A DNA stretch of 16,870 nt, taken from Deltaproteobacteria bacterium RBG_13_61_14 (GTDB lineage: Bacteria; RBG-13-61-14). Positions 9,303-14,129 of the stretch are shown here, piece after piece. Position numbers and translations under genes: made by a program. The notes beneath the pieces are model-generated. The model saw only the letters and a program-made list of their open reading frames with translations. It made no database searches and was not told the DNA's origin. The stretch covers positions 142,524 to 159,393 of the forward strand of contig MGQK01000081.1 in assembly GCA_001797815.1 (NCBI GenBank), read 5' to 3'. Every line of letters begins with the position of its first letter. The first letter of the stretch is position 1.

Positions 9303-9542
9303 TCCCCAGCCGGGGCCAAGCCCAAAGAGGTCATGGACTTGGCGCGCCATGCGACTGTGGACATGACCTTGCGGGTTTATGCTCGGTCGAGGTGGGAACG
9401 GCGGGGAGAGCTTGCCGAAGCCGTGGGCAGGATGGTGAATCCTGGGCCGAAGTGTGCTACCAGCGTGCTACGGCAAATGGTGTGGGGATTCGTAACTATG
9501 GACAAGATCAAGGAAAATCATGGTGCGAAAGGGGGGATTTGA
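9303..9542 (+). pseudogene. Tyrosine recombinase (integrase) C-terminal remnant
   Basis: After the synthetase stop (9297-9299) the same frame reads PAGAKPKEVMDLARHATVDM and then TLRVYARSRWERRGELAEAV. This matches the last part of phage-type integrases: AGA-PKEV, the conserved His of the RH-A motif, and the nucleophilic Tyr in the MT-RVYAR segment. The catalytic Arg and the HxxR motif, with the whole N-terminus, are missing and there is no start codon context, so it is a truncated pseudogene. Recognisable similarity ends near 9437; the frame then continues as a tail that stops inside the tRNA-Leu 3' end (TGA 9540-9542), the arrangement expected when an integrase gene abuts its tRNA attachment site. 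Confidence 0.75.
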
Positions 9543-9607
9543 ACCCCCACGACCTTGCGGCCGCTGGACCCTGAATCCAGTGCGTCTCCCAGTTCCGCCA
9601 CTTTCGC
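9521..9607 (-). tRNA. tRNA-Leu (anticodon CAG)
   Basis: On the minus strand the acceptor arms GCGAAAG (9607-9601) and CTTTCGC (9531-9525) pair perfectly, followed by discriminator A and an encoded CCA (9523-9521). The anticodon stem CTGGA/TCCAG encloses the loop TTCAGGG, giving anticodon CAG (reads CUG). The T arm is GGGGG-TTCAAAT-CCCCC, and a long variable arm makes it class II. The 87-nt length is typical for leucine tRNA. It ends beside an integrase remnant. Confidence 0.97.
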
Positions 9608-10029: not shown

Positions 10030-10057
10030 TTGACAAGAGCGGTCTTGAGGATGTAAT
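10030..10057 (+). promoter_or_regulatory. Promoter of the pabA-pabB operon / leader RNA
   Basis: Perfect TTGACA (10030-10035), a 16-nt spacer, and TGTAAT (10052-10057; 5 of 6). An alternative -10, TAATCT (10054-10059), gives an 18-nt spacer. Transcription would start near 10064, exactly where the structured leader begins. Confidence 0.6.
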
Positions 10058-10063
10058 CTATGT

Positions 10064-10172
10064 TCCAGGTCAAGGACCTGGCCGCCGGTGTCGGCGGCTT
10101 TCGGAAGTATGCCAGGTCATCCCGCGAGAGCGCGGATGAGCACCCAGCTTCCAGGCGGAGCTGGGTTTTTTT
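10064..10172 (+). ncRNA. Structured pabA leader, possible attenuator or terminated small RNA
   Basis: Four hairpins stand in tandem: CCAGGTC-aag-GACCTGG (10065-10081); CCGCC-ggtgtc-GGCGG (10082-10097); TCAT-c-CCGCG-agag-CGCGG-ATGA (10117-10139); and the terminator (10142-10172). The single GACCTGG (10075-10081) can pair either with the CCAGGTC at 10065-10071 or with a second CCAGGTC at 10113-10119, so two mutually exclusive folds exist; a third CCAGG (10151-10155) sits in the terminator loop. This is what a transcription attenuator or riboswitch would look like, but it matches no class I know. A stand-alone ~110-nt RNA with read-through into pabA is the alternative. Confidence 0.45.
10142..10172 (+). 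terminator. Intrinsic terminator immediately before pabA start codon
   Basis: ACCCAGCT (10142-10149) and AGCTGGGT (10159-10166) form a perfect 8-bp stem with a 9-nt loop, followed by seven T (10166-10172). The pabA ATG begins at 10180, so termination here would prevent pabA-pabB expression; this favours attenuation. Confidence 0.8.
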
Positions 10173-10179
10173 ATTGGTC

Positions 10180-10752
10180 ATGCGAATCGTGATAATTGAC
10201 AACTACGACTCCTTCACCTACAACCTGGTCCAGGCGCTGGGCGAGCTGGGGCACGAGCTGCGCGTCTTCCGCCACGACCGGGTGAAGGTGGATGAAATCG
10301 CGGAGCTGCGGCCGGACAAGATCGTGATCTCGCCCGGTCCGGGCCGGCCCCGGGACGCGGGCATCTCCATGGAGGTGATCCGCGGTTTCGGCCCGAGCAC
10401 CTGGGTGCTCGGCGTCTGCCTGGGCCACCAGTGCCTGGCCGAGGCGTTCGGCGGCAAGGTGAAGCACGCGCCCCGGGTGATGCACGGCAAGACCTCGCGG
10501 GTGGCGCATGACGGCCGGGGCATCCACGCGGGCGTGGCCAACCCCTTCGTGGCCATGCGCTATCACTCGCTGGCGGTGGAGGAAAAGAGCCTGCCCTCGT
10601 GCCTGAAAGTGACGGCCCGGGCGGAAGACGGCGTGATCATGGGGCTGCGCCACACCGACCAGAAACTGGTGGGCGTGCAATATCATCCAGAGTCGTTCCT
10701 CACCCCCGAGGGCAAGCGCATCCTCCAAAACTTCATCCGTCTGGACTCATGA
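10180..10752 (+). CDS. pabA: Aminodeoxychorismate synthase, glutamine amidotransferase component
   Basis: A 190-residue class I glutamine amidotransferase that releases ammonia from glutamine for the partner PabB subunit. The start MRIVIIDNYDSFTYNLVQ is the standard N-terminus of TrpG/PabA. SPGPGRP (51-57), nucleophile Cys80 in GVCLGHQ, and His169 and Glu171 in YHPES make up the oxyanion loop and catalytic triad. TrpG and PabA are near-identical families; the PabA assignment follows from the downstream gene, whose active site is of the PabB type, though a shared TrpG/PabA role is possible. The start has no good Shine-Dalgarno sequence: the 7 nt before ATG follow directly on the terminator T-run, itself a hint of special control. 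The frame is open to an ATG at 10060, but that extension is leader RNA, not family sequence. It overlaps pabB by 4 nt (ATGA). Confidence 0.9.
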   Translation: MRIVIIDNYDSFTYNLVQALGELGHELRVFRHDRVKVDEIAELRPDKIVISPGPGRPRDAGISMEVIRGFGPSTWVLGVCLGHQCLAEAFGGKVKHAPRVMHGKTSRVAHDGRGIHAGVANPFVAMRYHSLAVEEKSLPSCLKVTARAEDGVIMGLRHTDQKLVGVQYHPESFLTPEGKRILQNFIRLDS

Positions 10753-12140
10753 TGGAACCGATCGAGCTAAAAGGCCTGGCCCTGGAACCCGCGGCGCTGT
10801 TCGCCGGCCTGGCCGAGCGCCCCGGTTCGGCCTATCTCGACAGCGCCCTGATTGACGAGCACGGCCTGGGCCGCTGGTCGTTTTTAGCCTGGGACCCGTT
10901 CCTCACTCTTTCCGGCAAAGGCGACGCCCTCCAGGTGCGCCAGGCCGGCCGCTCCAGCCGGTCCGCCGATCACCCCCTGCAAATCCTCCGCGCCCTGCTC
11001 CAACGCTATCGGTCCGAAAAGGGCGAGGGACCGGTTCCTTTTGGCTCCGGAGCGATCGGTTACCTGGCTTACGATTTAAGCCACGCCCTGGAGCGGCGGC
11101 CGCGAACTACCAATGACGACCTGCAGCTACCGGACCTCTATTTCACCTTCCACGACTTTGTCCTGGCTTACGACCACCTCGGCCAACGCTGGCACCTGGC
11201 CGGCGAAGACCAGCACCAGGGCGAGCGGCCGTCCCTCGCCCGGCGCCGGGATGAAGTGATGGCTCTGGCGGAAAAGGCGGCTCCGGCCGGTCTGCCGGAA
11301 ATCTCCCCGGCCGAGCCGGTCCGCTTCTCGTCCAACTTCACCCGCGATGACTATCTTCGCGCCATCGTCAAGGCCAAGCACTACATCCGCGAGGGCGACA
11401 TCTACCAGGTCAATCTCTCCCAACGCTTTCGCGCGCCGGCGCCGGGTCCGGCCTGGCCGCTGTATCGGCGGCTGCGCCGGACCAATCCGGCCCCGTTCGC
11501 GGCGTTTTTGCAGGCCGGTGATTTCCAGGTGCTCTCCTCCTCGCCCGAGCGCTTCTTGCGGCTGGAAAGCGGCCGAGTGGAAACCCGGCCGATCAAGGGC
11601 ACCCGGCCCCGGGGCCGAACCCCGGCCGAAGACGCTGGTCTCGCCCAGGAGCTTTTGACCAGCGAGAAAGATCATGCGGAATTGAATATGATCGTGGACC
11701 TGGAGCGGAACGACCTGGGCCGGGTCTGCGCTTACGGCACGGTGCGGGTGACCCGCCACGCCGCGCTGGAAAGTTACGCGCGCGTGCATCACCTGGTCTC
11801 GACGGTCGCGGGGCAGCTCCTTGGCGGCAAGGACACGGTGGACCTGATCCGCGCCGCCTTCCCCGGCGGCTCGATCACCGGCGCGCCCAAGATCCGGGCC
11901 ATGCAGATCATTGACGAGCTCGAGCCTACTTCCCGCAGTGTTTACACCGGCGCCATCGGCTGGCTGGGATTCAACGGCGACCTTGACCTCAATATCGCCA
12001 TCCGCACCATGATCGCGAAAGGGGGCGAGGTCTTTTTCCAGGCCGGGGGCGGCATCGTGGCCGATTCGGACCCGGAGGCCGAATACCAGGAGACTTTTGC
12101 CAAGGCGCAGGCGCTGTTCGAGGCCCTGAATGCCGGTTGA
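10749..12140 (+). CDS. pabB: Aminodeoxychorismate synthase component I
   Basis: A 463-residue chorismate-binding enzyme that converts chorismate and ammonia to 4-amino-4-deoxychorismate, the precursor of p-aminobenzoate for folate. The N-terminal part has AYLDSAL (28-34), the PabB-like variant of the TrpE LLES site. The C-terminal catalytic part has GDIYQVNLSQR (216-226), SSSPERFLRL (263-272), PIKGTRPRG (281-289), DHAELNMIVDLERNDLGRVC (308-327), FPGGSITGAPK (371-381) and FQAGGGIVADSDPEAEY (430-446). Lys283 in PIKGT is the key residue separating PabB from TrpE, which has PIAGT, because PabB uses it as a nucleophile. Translation is probably coupled to pabA through the ATGA overlap (a second ATG follows at 10752). 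No pabC is visible in the window. Confidence 0.92.
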   Translation: MMEPIELKGLALEPAALFAGLAERPGSAYLDSALIDEHGLGRWSFLAWDPFLTLSGKGDALQVRQAGRSSRSADHPLQILRALLQRYRSEKGEGPVPFGSGAIGYLAYDLSHALERRPRTTNDDLQLPDLYFTFHDFVLAYDHLGQRWHLAGEDQHQGERPSLARRRDEVMALAEKAAPAGLPEISPAEPVRFSSNFTRDDYLRAIVKAKHYIREGDIYQVNLSQRFRAPAPGPAWPLYRRLRRTNPAPFAAFLQAGDFQVLSSSPERFLRLESGRVETRPIKGTRPRGRTPAEDAGLAQELLTSEKDHAELNMIVDLERNDLGRVCAYGTVRVTRHAALESYARVHHLVSTVAGQLLGGKDTVDLIRAAFPGGSITGAPKIRAMQIIDELEPTSRSVYTGAIGWLGFNGDLDLNIAIRTMIAKGGEVFFQAGGGIVADSDPEAEYQETFAKAQALFEALNAG

Positions 12141-12194
12141 CTCCCTGGAGCGCGTGGATTAGGATGAGGGCATCCGCGAAGAGTGATTGCCGGG

Positions 12195-14129
12195 ATGAAG
12201 AAGTTCCTGATCCTGCTGGCCTTTCCGGTCTGCGCCCTGGCCCAGCCCAAGCTTTCGCTGACCCTCCAAGCCCCGGCCCTCTGGGTCAAGGGCACGCCGG
12301 CGGAGGTGGCAGTTGCAGTCAAGGAGATCGGGCCGGAGCAGACTGTTATGGTCCAGCTCTCCGGCGCCGGGCTTGCGCCTGCACCCGTCCTTTCCCGGAC
12401 CGGCCCGGGCGAGATTCTGTTCCAGAACCTGACCTTCACTGAAACCGGCCGGCTCGAGCTTGTGGCCCGGACCGCGGGCGCTGAAATCAGCCAACCCTTC
12501 CGCGTCATCCACGGCCTCTGGACTTTGCTCCCGCCGCTTTTGGCCATCGCCCTGGCCCTGATCTTTCGCCAGGTGCTGGCCGCGTTGTGGGTGGCGATCT
12601 GGCTGGGCGCGTTCATCGTTTACGACTGGCAGCCTCTCACCGCGGTGATGCGCTCGATTGACCACTACCTCAAGCAAGCCCTGGCCGACCCCGAGGACGC
12701 GGCCATGCTCCTCTTTATCATTTTCATGGGCGGCCTGATCGGGATGGTGAGCAAGAGCGGCGGTCTGCAGGGGGTGGTGGAGATCCTGGCCCGCCGGGCC
12801 ACCTCCGCGGTCCGCGGCCAGATCTCGACCTGGGCGATGGGGCTGTTCATCTTTTTCGACGATTACGCCAACTGCATCCTGGTGGGCAACACCATGCGGC
12901 CGATCACGGACCGGCTCAAGATCTCGCGGGAGAAGCTCGCTTACATCGTGGACACCACCGCGGCGCCGGTGGCGAGCCTGGTGCCGATCTCGACCTGGAT
13001 CGGATACGAGGTGGGGTTGATCAACCGCGCCCTGGAAAGCGCGGGCATGGATCAGAGCGGCTACATGGTCTTCCTCTGGTCGGTGCCCTATCGCTTTTAC
13101 CCCATCCTCTCGCTGGTCCTGGTGGCGATGATCGCTTTCTCCCACCGCGACTTCGGTCCCATGCTCCGGGCCGAGCGCCGGGCCCGGCGCGAGGGCAAAG
13201 TGCTCCGCGACGGCGCGGTGCCCATGGCCAGCCTGGAGGCGGACATCACCGAGCCGCCCGCGGGCGCGCCCCGGCGCTGGTACAATGCCGCGGTGCCGCT
13301 TTTATCGGTGATCGTGCTCACCGGCATCGGGCTCTGGGTGAACGGGGTGGACAACCTGGGCGAGGCGGGCTGGCAAGAGGTCTCGGCCCGGGCCCAGCCC
13401 TTCGGCTTCTGGACCGGCAAGGTTTACCTGGTGGGCATGGTGCTCTCGGAAGCTTCGGCCAACACGGTGCTCTGCTGGTCGAGCCTGGCCGGGTGCTTGA
13501 TCACGGTGCTGATGGTGGTGCCGCAGCGGATCTTGAGCCTGGCCGAGGCCATGCACGCCTGGCTGGGCGGGGTCAAGTCCATGGTGATCGCAATCGTGGT
13601 GCTGCTCTTCGCCTGGTCCCTGGGCTCGGTCTGCGCCGACCTGCACACCGCCGAGTTTCTCACCCACACCCTGGCCGGAGCGCTCTCGCCCCGTCTGCTC
13701 CCGGTCCTGGTCTTCCTCATCGCCTGCGCCATCTCCTTTGCCACCGGCACCAGCTACGGCACCATGGCCATCCTCATGCCCCTGGTCATCCCCATCGGAC
13801 ACCGGCTCTCGCTCGAGGCCGGCTTCGGCCCGGCCGACCAGCACCTGATCCTGGTGGGCGTGGTCTCCTCGGTGCTGGCCGGATCGGTCTTCGGCGACCA
13901 CTGCTCGCCCATCTCCGACACCACCATCATGTCGAGCATGGCCTCGGCCTGCGACCACGTGGACCACGTGCGCACCCAACTGCCCTATGCCGTGCTGGTG
14001 GCGCTGGTGGGCATGAGCCTGGGCGATATCCCGACCGCCTACGGGATGAGCCCGCTTATCACCATCATCGGGGGGGCCCTGGTCCTGTTCATGGTCTTGC
14101 GGATTTTCGGAAAGCGGGTGGAAAATTAA
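12195..14129 (+). CDS. NhaC-family Na+/H+ antiporter with exported N-terminal domain
   Basis: A 644-residue inner-membrane protein. Residues 1-16 look like a signal peptide (MKKFLILLAFPVCALA), and ~17-103 form a beta-rich soluble domain (VAVAVKEIGPEQTVMVQLSG, then LTFTETGRLELVART), presumably periplasmic. From ~108 on there are about a dozen hydrophobic segments with NhaC signatures: FFDDYAN (220-226) and GDHCSPISDTTIMSS (567-581), plus SFATGTSYGTMAILMPL. Canonical NhaC proteins are shorter and lack the exported domain. The family exchanges sodium for protons, and some NhaC-superfamily members carry amino or organic acids, so the substrate is not certain. A GTG at 12183 is in frame, but ATG 12195 gives a proper signal peptide; the Shine-Dalgarno sequence is weak. 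The gene lies 54 bp after pabB. Confidence 0.85.
   Translation: MKKFLILLAFPVCALAQPKLSLTLQAPALWVKGTPAEVAVAVKEIGPEQTVMVQLSGAGLAPAPVLSRTGPGEILFQNLTFTETGRLELVARTAGAEISQPFRVIHGLWTLLPPLLAIALALIFRQVLAALWVAIWLGAFIVYDWQPLTAVMRSIDHYLKQALADPEDAAMLLFIIFMGGLIGMVSKSGGLQGVVEILARRATSAVRGQISTWAMGLFIFFDDYANCILVGNTMRPITDRLKISREKLAYIVDTTAAPVASLVPISTWIGYEVGLINRALESAGMDQSGYMVFLWSVPYRFYPILSLVLVAMIAFSHRDFGPMLRAERRARREGKVLRDGAVPMASLEADITEPPAGAPRRWYNAAVPLLSVIVLTGIGLWVNGVDNLGEAGWQEVSARAQPFGFWTGKVYLVGMVLSEASANTVLCWSSLAGCLITVLMVVPQRILSLAEAMHAWLGGVKSMVIAIVVLLFAWSLGSVCADLHTAEFLTHTLAGALSPRLLPVLVFLIACAISFATGTSYGTMAILMPLVIPIGHRLSLEAGFGPADQHLILVGVVSSVLAGSVFGDHCSPISDTTIMSSMASACDHVDHVRTQLPYAVLVALVGMSLGDIPTAYGMSPLITIIGGALVLFMVLRIFGKRVEN

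Follow-up and report, generated by a model that had tools for sequence, protein, structure and literature searches.

The short leader in front of the pabA gene of the window (the whole 16,870-nucleotide stretch of DNA analysed here) is apparently a conserved and undescribed attenuator candidate from a poorly sampled phylum, recognised from three sequences. Our main reading, to which we give a probability of roughly 0.6, is that it is a transcription attenuator of the para-aminobenzoate (PABA) branch, particular to this lineage, a small bacterial order; it would stop transcription by default and be opened by an effector that stabilises an antiterminator. Our search of the open literature turned up no attenuator or riboswitch described before pabA or pabB, and Rfam gave no family either. 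PABA feeds folate, the pathway targeted by sulfonamides.

Promoter and leader of the pab genes

The promoter, read both directly and by script, consists of TTGACA (10030-10035), a 16-nt spacer and TGTAAT (10052-10057) and agrees with the consensus at 11 of 12 positions, which bears out the preliminary description of it as near-consensus. An automated promoter scan overlooked it, as that scan demands an A at position 2 of the -10 element. Transcription is predicted to start at about 10064/10065. The leader of about 110 nt between promoter and pabA forms a pair of small hairpins at its 5' end, then a longer one and finally the terminator stem of 10 bp; its free energy is -56.4 kcal/mol vs -40.4 kcal/mol for dinucleotide shuffles (z = -4.7; 0/200 shuffles as good), in keeping with the structured leader described before. 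The strong intrinsic terminator of that description was likewise recovered: at 10142-10166, ten pairs enclose a loop of 5, and seven T at 10166-10172 end 7 nt before the pabA ATG at 10180. That pabA has no preceding Shine-Dalgarno sequence, as had been observed, is true of the window; the related genome G002 has GGAGAGAATG, so the absence is not conserved. Features are listed in Table 1.

Table 1. Positions of the leader elements and pab genes in the window.
Feature	Position	Strand	Basis or remark
Promoter TTGACA-16-TGTAAT	10030-10057	+	Sequence reading; both relatives have TTGACA too, with 17 nt to the -10
5' extension with two hairpins (10066-10080, 10081-10098)	10065-10098	+	Folding; window genome only, absent from L126/L127
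Antiterminator P1, 5' strand GGAAGU-A-UG	10103-10111	+	Alignment and folding of growing transcripts
Hairpin P2, enclosed by P1 across a 3x3 internal loop, CCA (10112-10114)/ACC (10142-10144)	10115-10141	+	
P1 3' strand CAGCUUCC, also the terminator 5' arm	10145-10152	+	Alignment and folding
Intrinsic terminator (stem 10142-10166, T-run 10166-10172)	10142-10172	+	Kept in both relatives
pabA, glutamine amidotransferase of aminodeoxychorismate/anthranilate synthase	10180-10752	+	
pabB-like component I	10749-12140	+	4-base overlap with pabA; orthologue directly follows the leader in relatives

Read upstream, the pabA frame meets no stop in the leader and reaches an ATG at 10060 (10060-10752 of the window). 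We rejected this in-frame extension as the start of the gene: transcription is predicted to start downstream of the ATG at 10060, and homology sets in at residues 2-3 of the protein that starts with the 10180 ATG. The pabB frame is open into the leader in the relative G001; in G002 it extends no further than a TTG immediately ahead of the start.

The window is part of contig C81 of a 4.7-Mb draft genome, which carries a separate trpG and trpE pair elsewhere on the same contig; no such leader was seen on the trp operon of this genome. A tRNA-Leu(CAG) gene (9521-9607, minus strand) diverges from pabA and has its own promoter-like TTGACA-16-TAAACT at 9652-9625. The gene after pabB (12183-14126) resembles Na+/H+ antiporters of the NhaC/Tet(35) kind, with a score of 157.6 bits that falls far short of the Tet(35) cut-off of 750.

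Orthologous leaders in related genomes

The phylum sample comprises three genomes: that of the window and two relatives, G001 and G002, which belong to one genus in the same order as the window genome. Both relatives have the same kind of leader directly before pabB. Upstream of it lie TTGACA, 17 nt and a -10 element of GATACT or AATAAT, then a core of the form GRARGY-A-UG-ACAG-hairpin-CACCCAGCUUUCC-UUU-GGRARGCUGGG-U(6-7)-AUU, followed by the start codon. The window alone carries a 39-nt 5' extension with two hairpins, which both relatives lack. Since the predicted +1 in both relatives is the first base of P1, the complete regulatory part may be only about 60 nt.

Across the three sequences 39 columns of the leader core are invariant, though the PabB proteins of the relatives are just 50-51% identical to that of the window. 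Local alignment of the upstream regions outscores 500/500 shuffles, and does so at the matching position. When the 4.7-Mb genome was searched with a covariance model built from G001 and G002 only, the window leader (39.4 bits, E = 1.1e-8) was the one match at E <= 10. With a model of all three sequences (R1), searched across 386 genomes of the domain, the three leaders score 71-87 bits, and each of the three phylum genomes has one strong match, before its first pab gene. Matches outside the phylum reach at most 26 bits, and the best eight, which we inspected and discarded, adjoin unrelated genes. Judged by sequence and position, then, the leader is orthologous across the three genomes, once per genome and always before the first pab gene.

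In G001 and G002 TrpG adjoins TrpE, and no second close PabA/TrpG was seen. Since the leader precedes pabB in these genomes, and in the window precedes pabA, which stands between leader and pabB, it appears to belong to the first gene of the pab unit, whichever that is.

A promoter, a structured RNA and a strong terminator within about 110 nt would also be expected of a free-standing small RNA (about 60 to 110 nt) that acts in trans and for which the position beside pab is secondary. We regard this as quite improbable: in 3/3 genomes 7-11 nt separate the T-run from the first pab start codon, no further promoter-like site for the pab genes was seen in that interval, and genomes that lack pabA still have the leader before pabB.

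Terminators directly beside pabA/trpG are nearly absent from 108 other loci, where a scan that detected the window as its positive control gave one weak possible candidate within 60 nt (L107). Upstream of pabB/trpE, among 27 other loci (about 20 correctly placed), a terminator immediately precedes the open frame in two, L182 and L187; these may be of trp type or a property of the preceding gene.

Mutually exclusive antiterminator and terminator folds

The conserved switch is a pairing of GGAAGY-A-UG (10103-10111) with CAGCUUYC (10145-10152), a segment that doubles as the terminator 5' arm. The resulting antiterminator, P1, has 6 bp, a bulged A and 2 bp, followed by a 3x3 internal loop MCA/ACC and P2, and it and the terminator fold are mutually exclusive. 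When the growing transcripts of the three leaders were folded, the 8-bp antiterminator was the minimum free energy (MFE) fold of 3/3 truncated transcripts until the terminator 3' arm appeared, with ((((((.((...P2...)))))))) common to all three, and the fold flipped to the terminator once that arm was nearly complete. The leader thus has the general make-up of an attenuator, a terminator between promoter and first gene with an exclusive upstream pairing, and the same MFE antiterminator and terminator are kept in the relatives (n = 3).

Each of the 8 P1 pairs is formed in all three sequences (24/24 cells). The second pair is G-C, A-U or G-U, and the fourth and sixth show changes on one side. Sliding the partners by one to three columns lowers whole-structure pairing from 97% to 33-58%, and when the 5' segment of each sequence was permuted, 8 such pairs arose in only 1.5-2.2% of cases. 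The leader core with its antiterminator and terminator stems is found in both relatives, a comparison that the preliminary description had proposed; the covariation score falls within column shuffles (123/500), on three sequences of which two are from one genus. Part of the leader conservation stems from the terminator itself. There are matching G/A choices at two positions in the P1 5' strand and the terminator 3' arm, with GAAGG occurring twice in G001 and GGAAGC twice in G002 (L126:1947-2007 and L127:1870-1929). These hint at co-evolution or copying between the competing strands, as if they were kept in balance.

The terminator conformation is favoured over that with the antiterminator by 7-16 kcal/mol, so that termination may simply be the usual outcome at this leader. 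One could go further and propose an unregulated partial terminator that a fixed fraction of polymerases passes, giving a low constant level of PabA/PabB, with the P1 pairing incidental. The large difference in stability fits such a terminator, as do the weak covariation among three sequences and the free-energy gain from the 5' strand, which is not significant in single sequences (p 0.07-0.32). We nevertheless consider it unlikely, given that 9/13 bases upstream of P2 (GGAAGYAUGMCAG) are invariant, that the four variable ones keep the P1 pairing or sit in the internal loop, and that the same 8-bp fold is found in three genomes.

The switch differs from the one first proposed, in which GACCTGG would pair with either of two CCAGGTC segments. 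The repeats themselves are present: CCAGGTC at 10065-10071 and GACCTGG at 10075-10081 were placed correctly, the second CCAGGTC is at 10112-10118 rather than 10113-10119, and the third CCAGG, assigned to the terminator loop, is at 10151-10155. As an alternative fold they fail, with a long-range pairing probability of about 3e-4 where the local hairpin reaches 0.91-0.99 in its core pairs, and the switch is not kept in relatives, as GACCTGG sits in the 39-nt extension exclusive to the window genome. Folding of both conformations yielded a different terminator/antiterminator pair. The idea of an undescribed attenuator survives on the orthologous leader in both relatives, the conserved antiterminator/terminator and the lack of an Rfam match, with that particular alternative fold set aside.

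The AUG within P1 (10109-10111) is invariant in 3/3 sequences, and in G001 and G002 the predicted 5' end is 6 nt before it. A ribosome at this AUG would block P1 and favour termination, and low formyl-folate, by slowing initiation, would relieve it; such a sensor of translation start seems to us hardly credible. Frame and stop after the AUG are not conserved (P2 differs by 14 nt), no properly spaced Shine-Dalgarno sequence is present, and in the window the AUG is about 45 nt from the 5' end. Nor do the three leaders encode a trp-type leader peptide: the frame of the conserved AUG is not maintained through the leader, its ends differ, and there is no Trp run, in agreement with the earlier statement that a Trp-rich peptide is lacking.

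Proposed mechanism

For the attenuator of our main reading, we infer that termination is regulated, that the default is off and the effector turns it on, and what the effector would be. RNA polymerase would start at the promoter and make the short leader, in which the newly made terminator 5' arm would pair with the upstream GGAAGY-A-UG to form the antiterminator hairpin (P1, 3x3 internal loop, P2). On completion of the terminator 3' arm, P1 would be displaced by the terminator hairpin, which is more stable, and transcription would stop before the pab gene or genes. Expression would then need the P1/P2 antiterminator to be stabilised or its displacement to be slowed. Because the antiterminator is the only conserved upstream element besides the terminator, default termination with effector-stabilised read-through is the simplest logic.

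The most likely effector would recognise the conserved AUG-MCA/ACC internal loop and report the need for PABA or folate. It could be a small molecule from the chorismate/PABA/folate branch or else a protein that binds the RNA. Each genome has a single strong match, which belongs to the PABA branch, and none was seen on the trp operon of the window genome; this points to a PABA- or folate-related signal. More tentatively, and we think this possible rather than probable, the leader could represent a compact (about 60-nt) class of cis-regulatory RNA from one poorly sampled phylum, in which the antiterminator with the AUG-MCA/ACC loop binds a metabolite of the PABA branch or related to folate and turns on the pab genes. 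Few attenuator designs would be simpler than a leader of about 60 nt with its antiterminator beginning at the predicted first transcript nucleotide. Which signal is sensed can be tested directly, thanks to the small conserved internal loop.

Known RNA families and comparison with known systems

No Rfam family reaches its gathering score on the window leader, the outcome of a check that the preliminary description had suggested, and a permissive scan of this leader gave just two weak matches, both sharing the terminator. Over window and relatives the permissive candidates, which we rejected, were anti-hemB, a betaproteobacterial toxic sRNA, NsiR1 and PyrR, all far under their gathering scores and matching mainly through the terminator. 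The T-box family had no match at the window leader at gathering or permissive thresholds, and THF-I, THF-II or any other Rfam riboswitch had none at gathering score in the window and none in the permissive scans of the window, G001 and G002; the earlier exclusion of T-box and known tetrahydrofolate riboswitches therefore stands.

TRAP controls trp and pabA in Bacillus subtilis and needs a series of (G/U)AG repeats. It shares with the pab leader RNA-level control that includes a pabA-type gene, and differs in that the pab leader has no such repeat series.

In the ribonucleic antiterminators (RAT) of the BglG/LicT/SacY family, too, the terminator 5' arm serves as the 3' strand of a hairpin with an internal loop, and effector binding would give read-through there as in the pab leader. 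The RAT consensus is a different sequence, it serves a different kind of target gene, and the antiterminator protein domain CAT_RBD (PF03123) was not found in the three draft genomes, while it was detected in the E. coli and B. subtilis controls. A search for the ANTAR domain gave no match in the three genomes, nor in any control genome.

PyrR attenuators (RF00515) also have a short leader with a hairpin upstream of a competing antiterminator/terminator pair, and they occur in this lineage before pyrR-pyrB: in the window genome at L197:1501-1602, minus strand (C43:20609-20710, minus strand), with 48.8 bits, and in G002 with 42.2 bits, against a gathering score of 54. The PyrR site of the window genome's pyr leader departs slightly from the usual form (AAUCCGGCGAGAUU); for this phylum the family threshold may therefore be set too high. 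One could accordingly imagine P2 as a degenerate PyrR site through which pyrimidines control PABA synthesis. The pab leaders of G001 and G002 do match weakly, at 21.8 and 19.8 bits, and the window P2 (10115-10141) holds AUCCCGCGAGA, one base off the site AUCCGGCGAGA in the pyr leader of the same genome. We judge this control very improbable. The scores are less than half the gathering score, the window leader is not listed as a match, and in the G001 match the part aligned with the PyrR hairpin is the promoter instead of P2. The PyrR loop has the consensus ARUCCNGNGAGGYU, to which AUCCCGCGAGA in the window conforms in part and which is broken in G001 and G002. Pathway logic is also absent, and the likeness of AUCCCGCGAGA to a PyrR site is probably chance.

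The THF-I and THF-II riboswitches are likewise cis-regulatory RNAs of the folate pathway, and THF-II is compact too (a 62-nt construct; PMC6800512). They are set apart from the pab leaders by the lack of any Rfam match and by position, as THF-II RNAs always adjoin folE (PMC6800512) rather than pab genes. The terminator/antiterminator principle of the pab leader is ordinary; its gene target and its sequence are apparently new.
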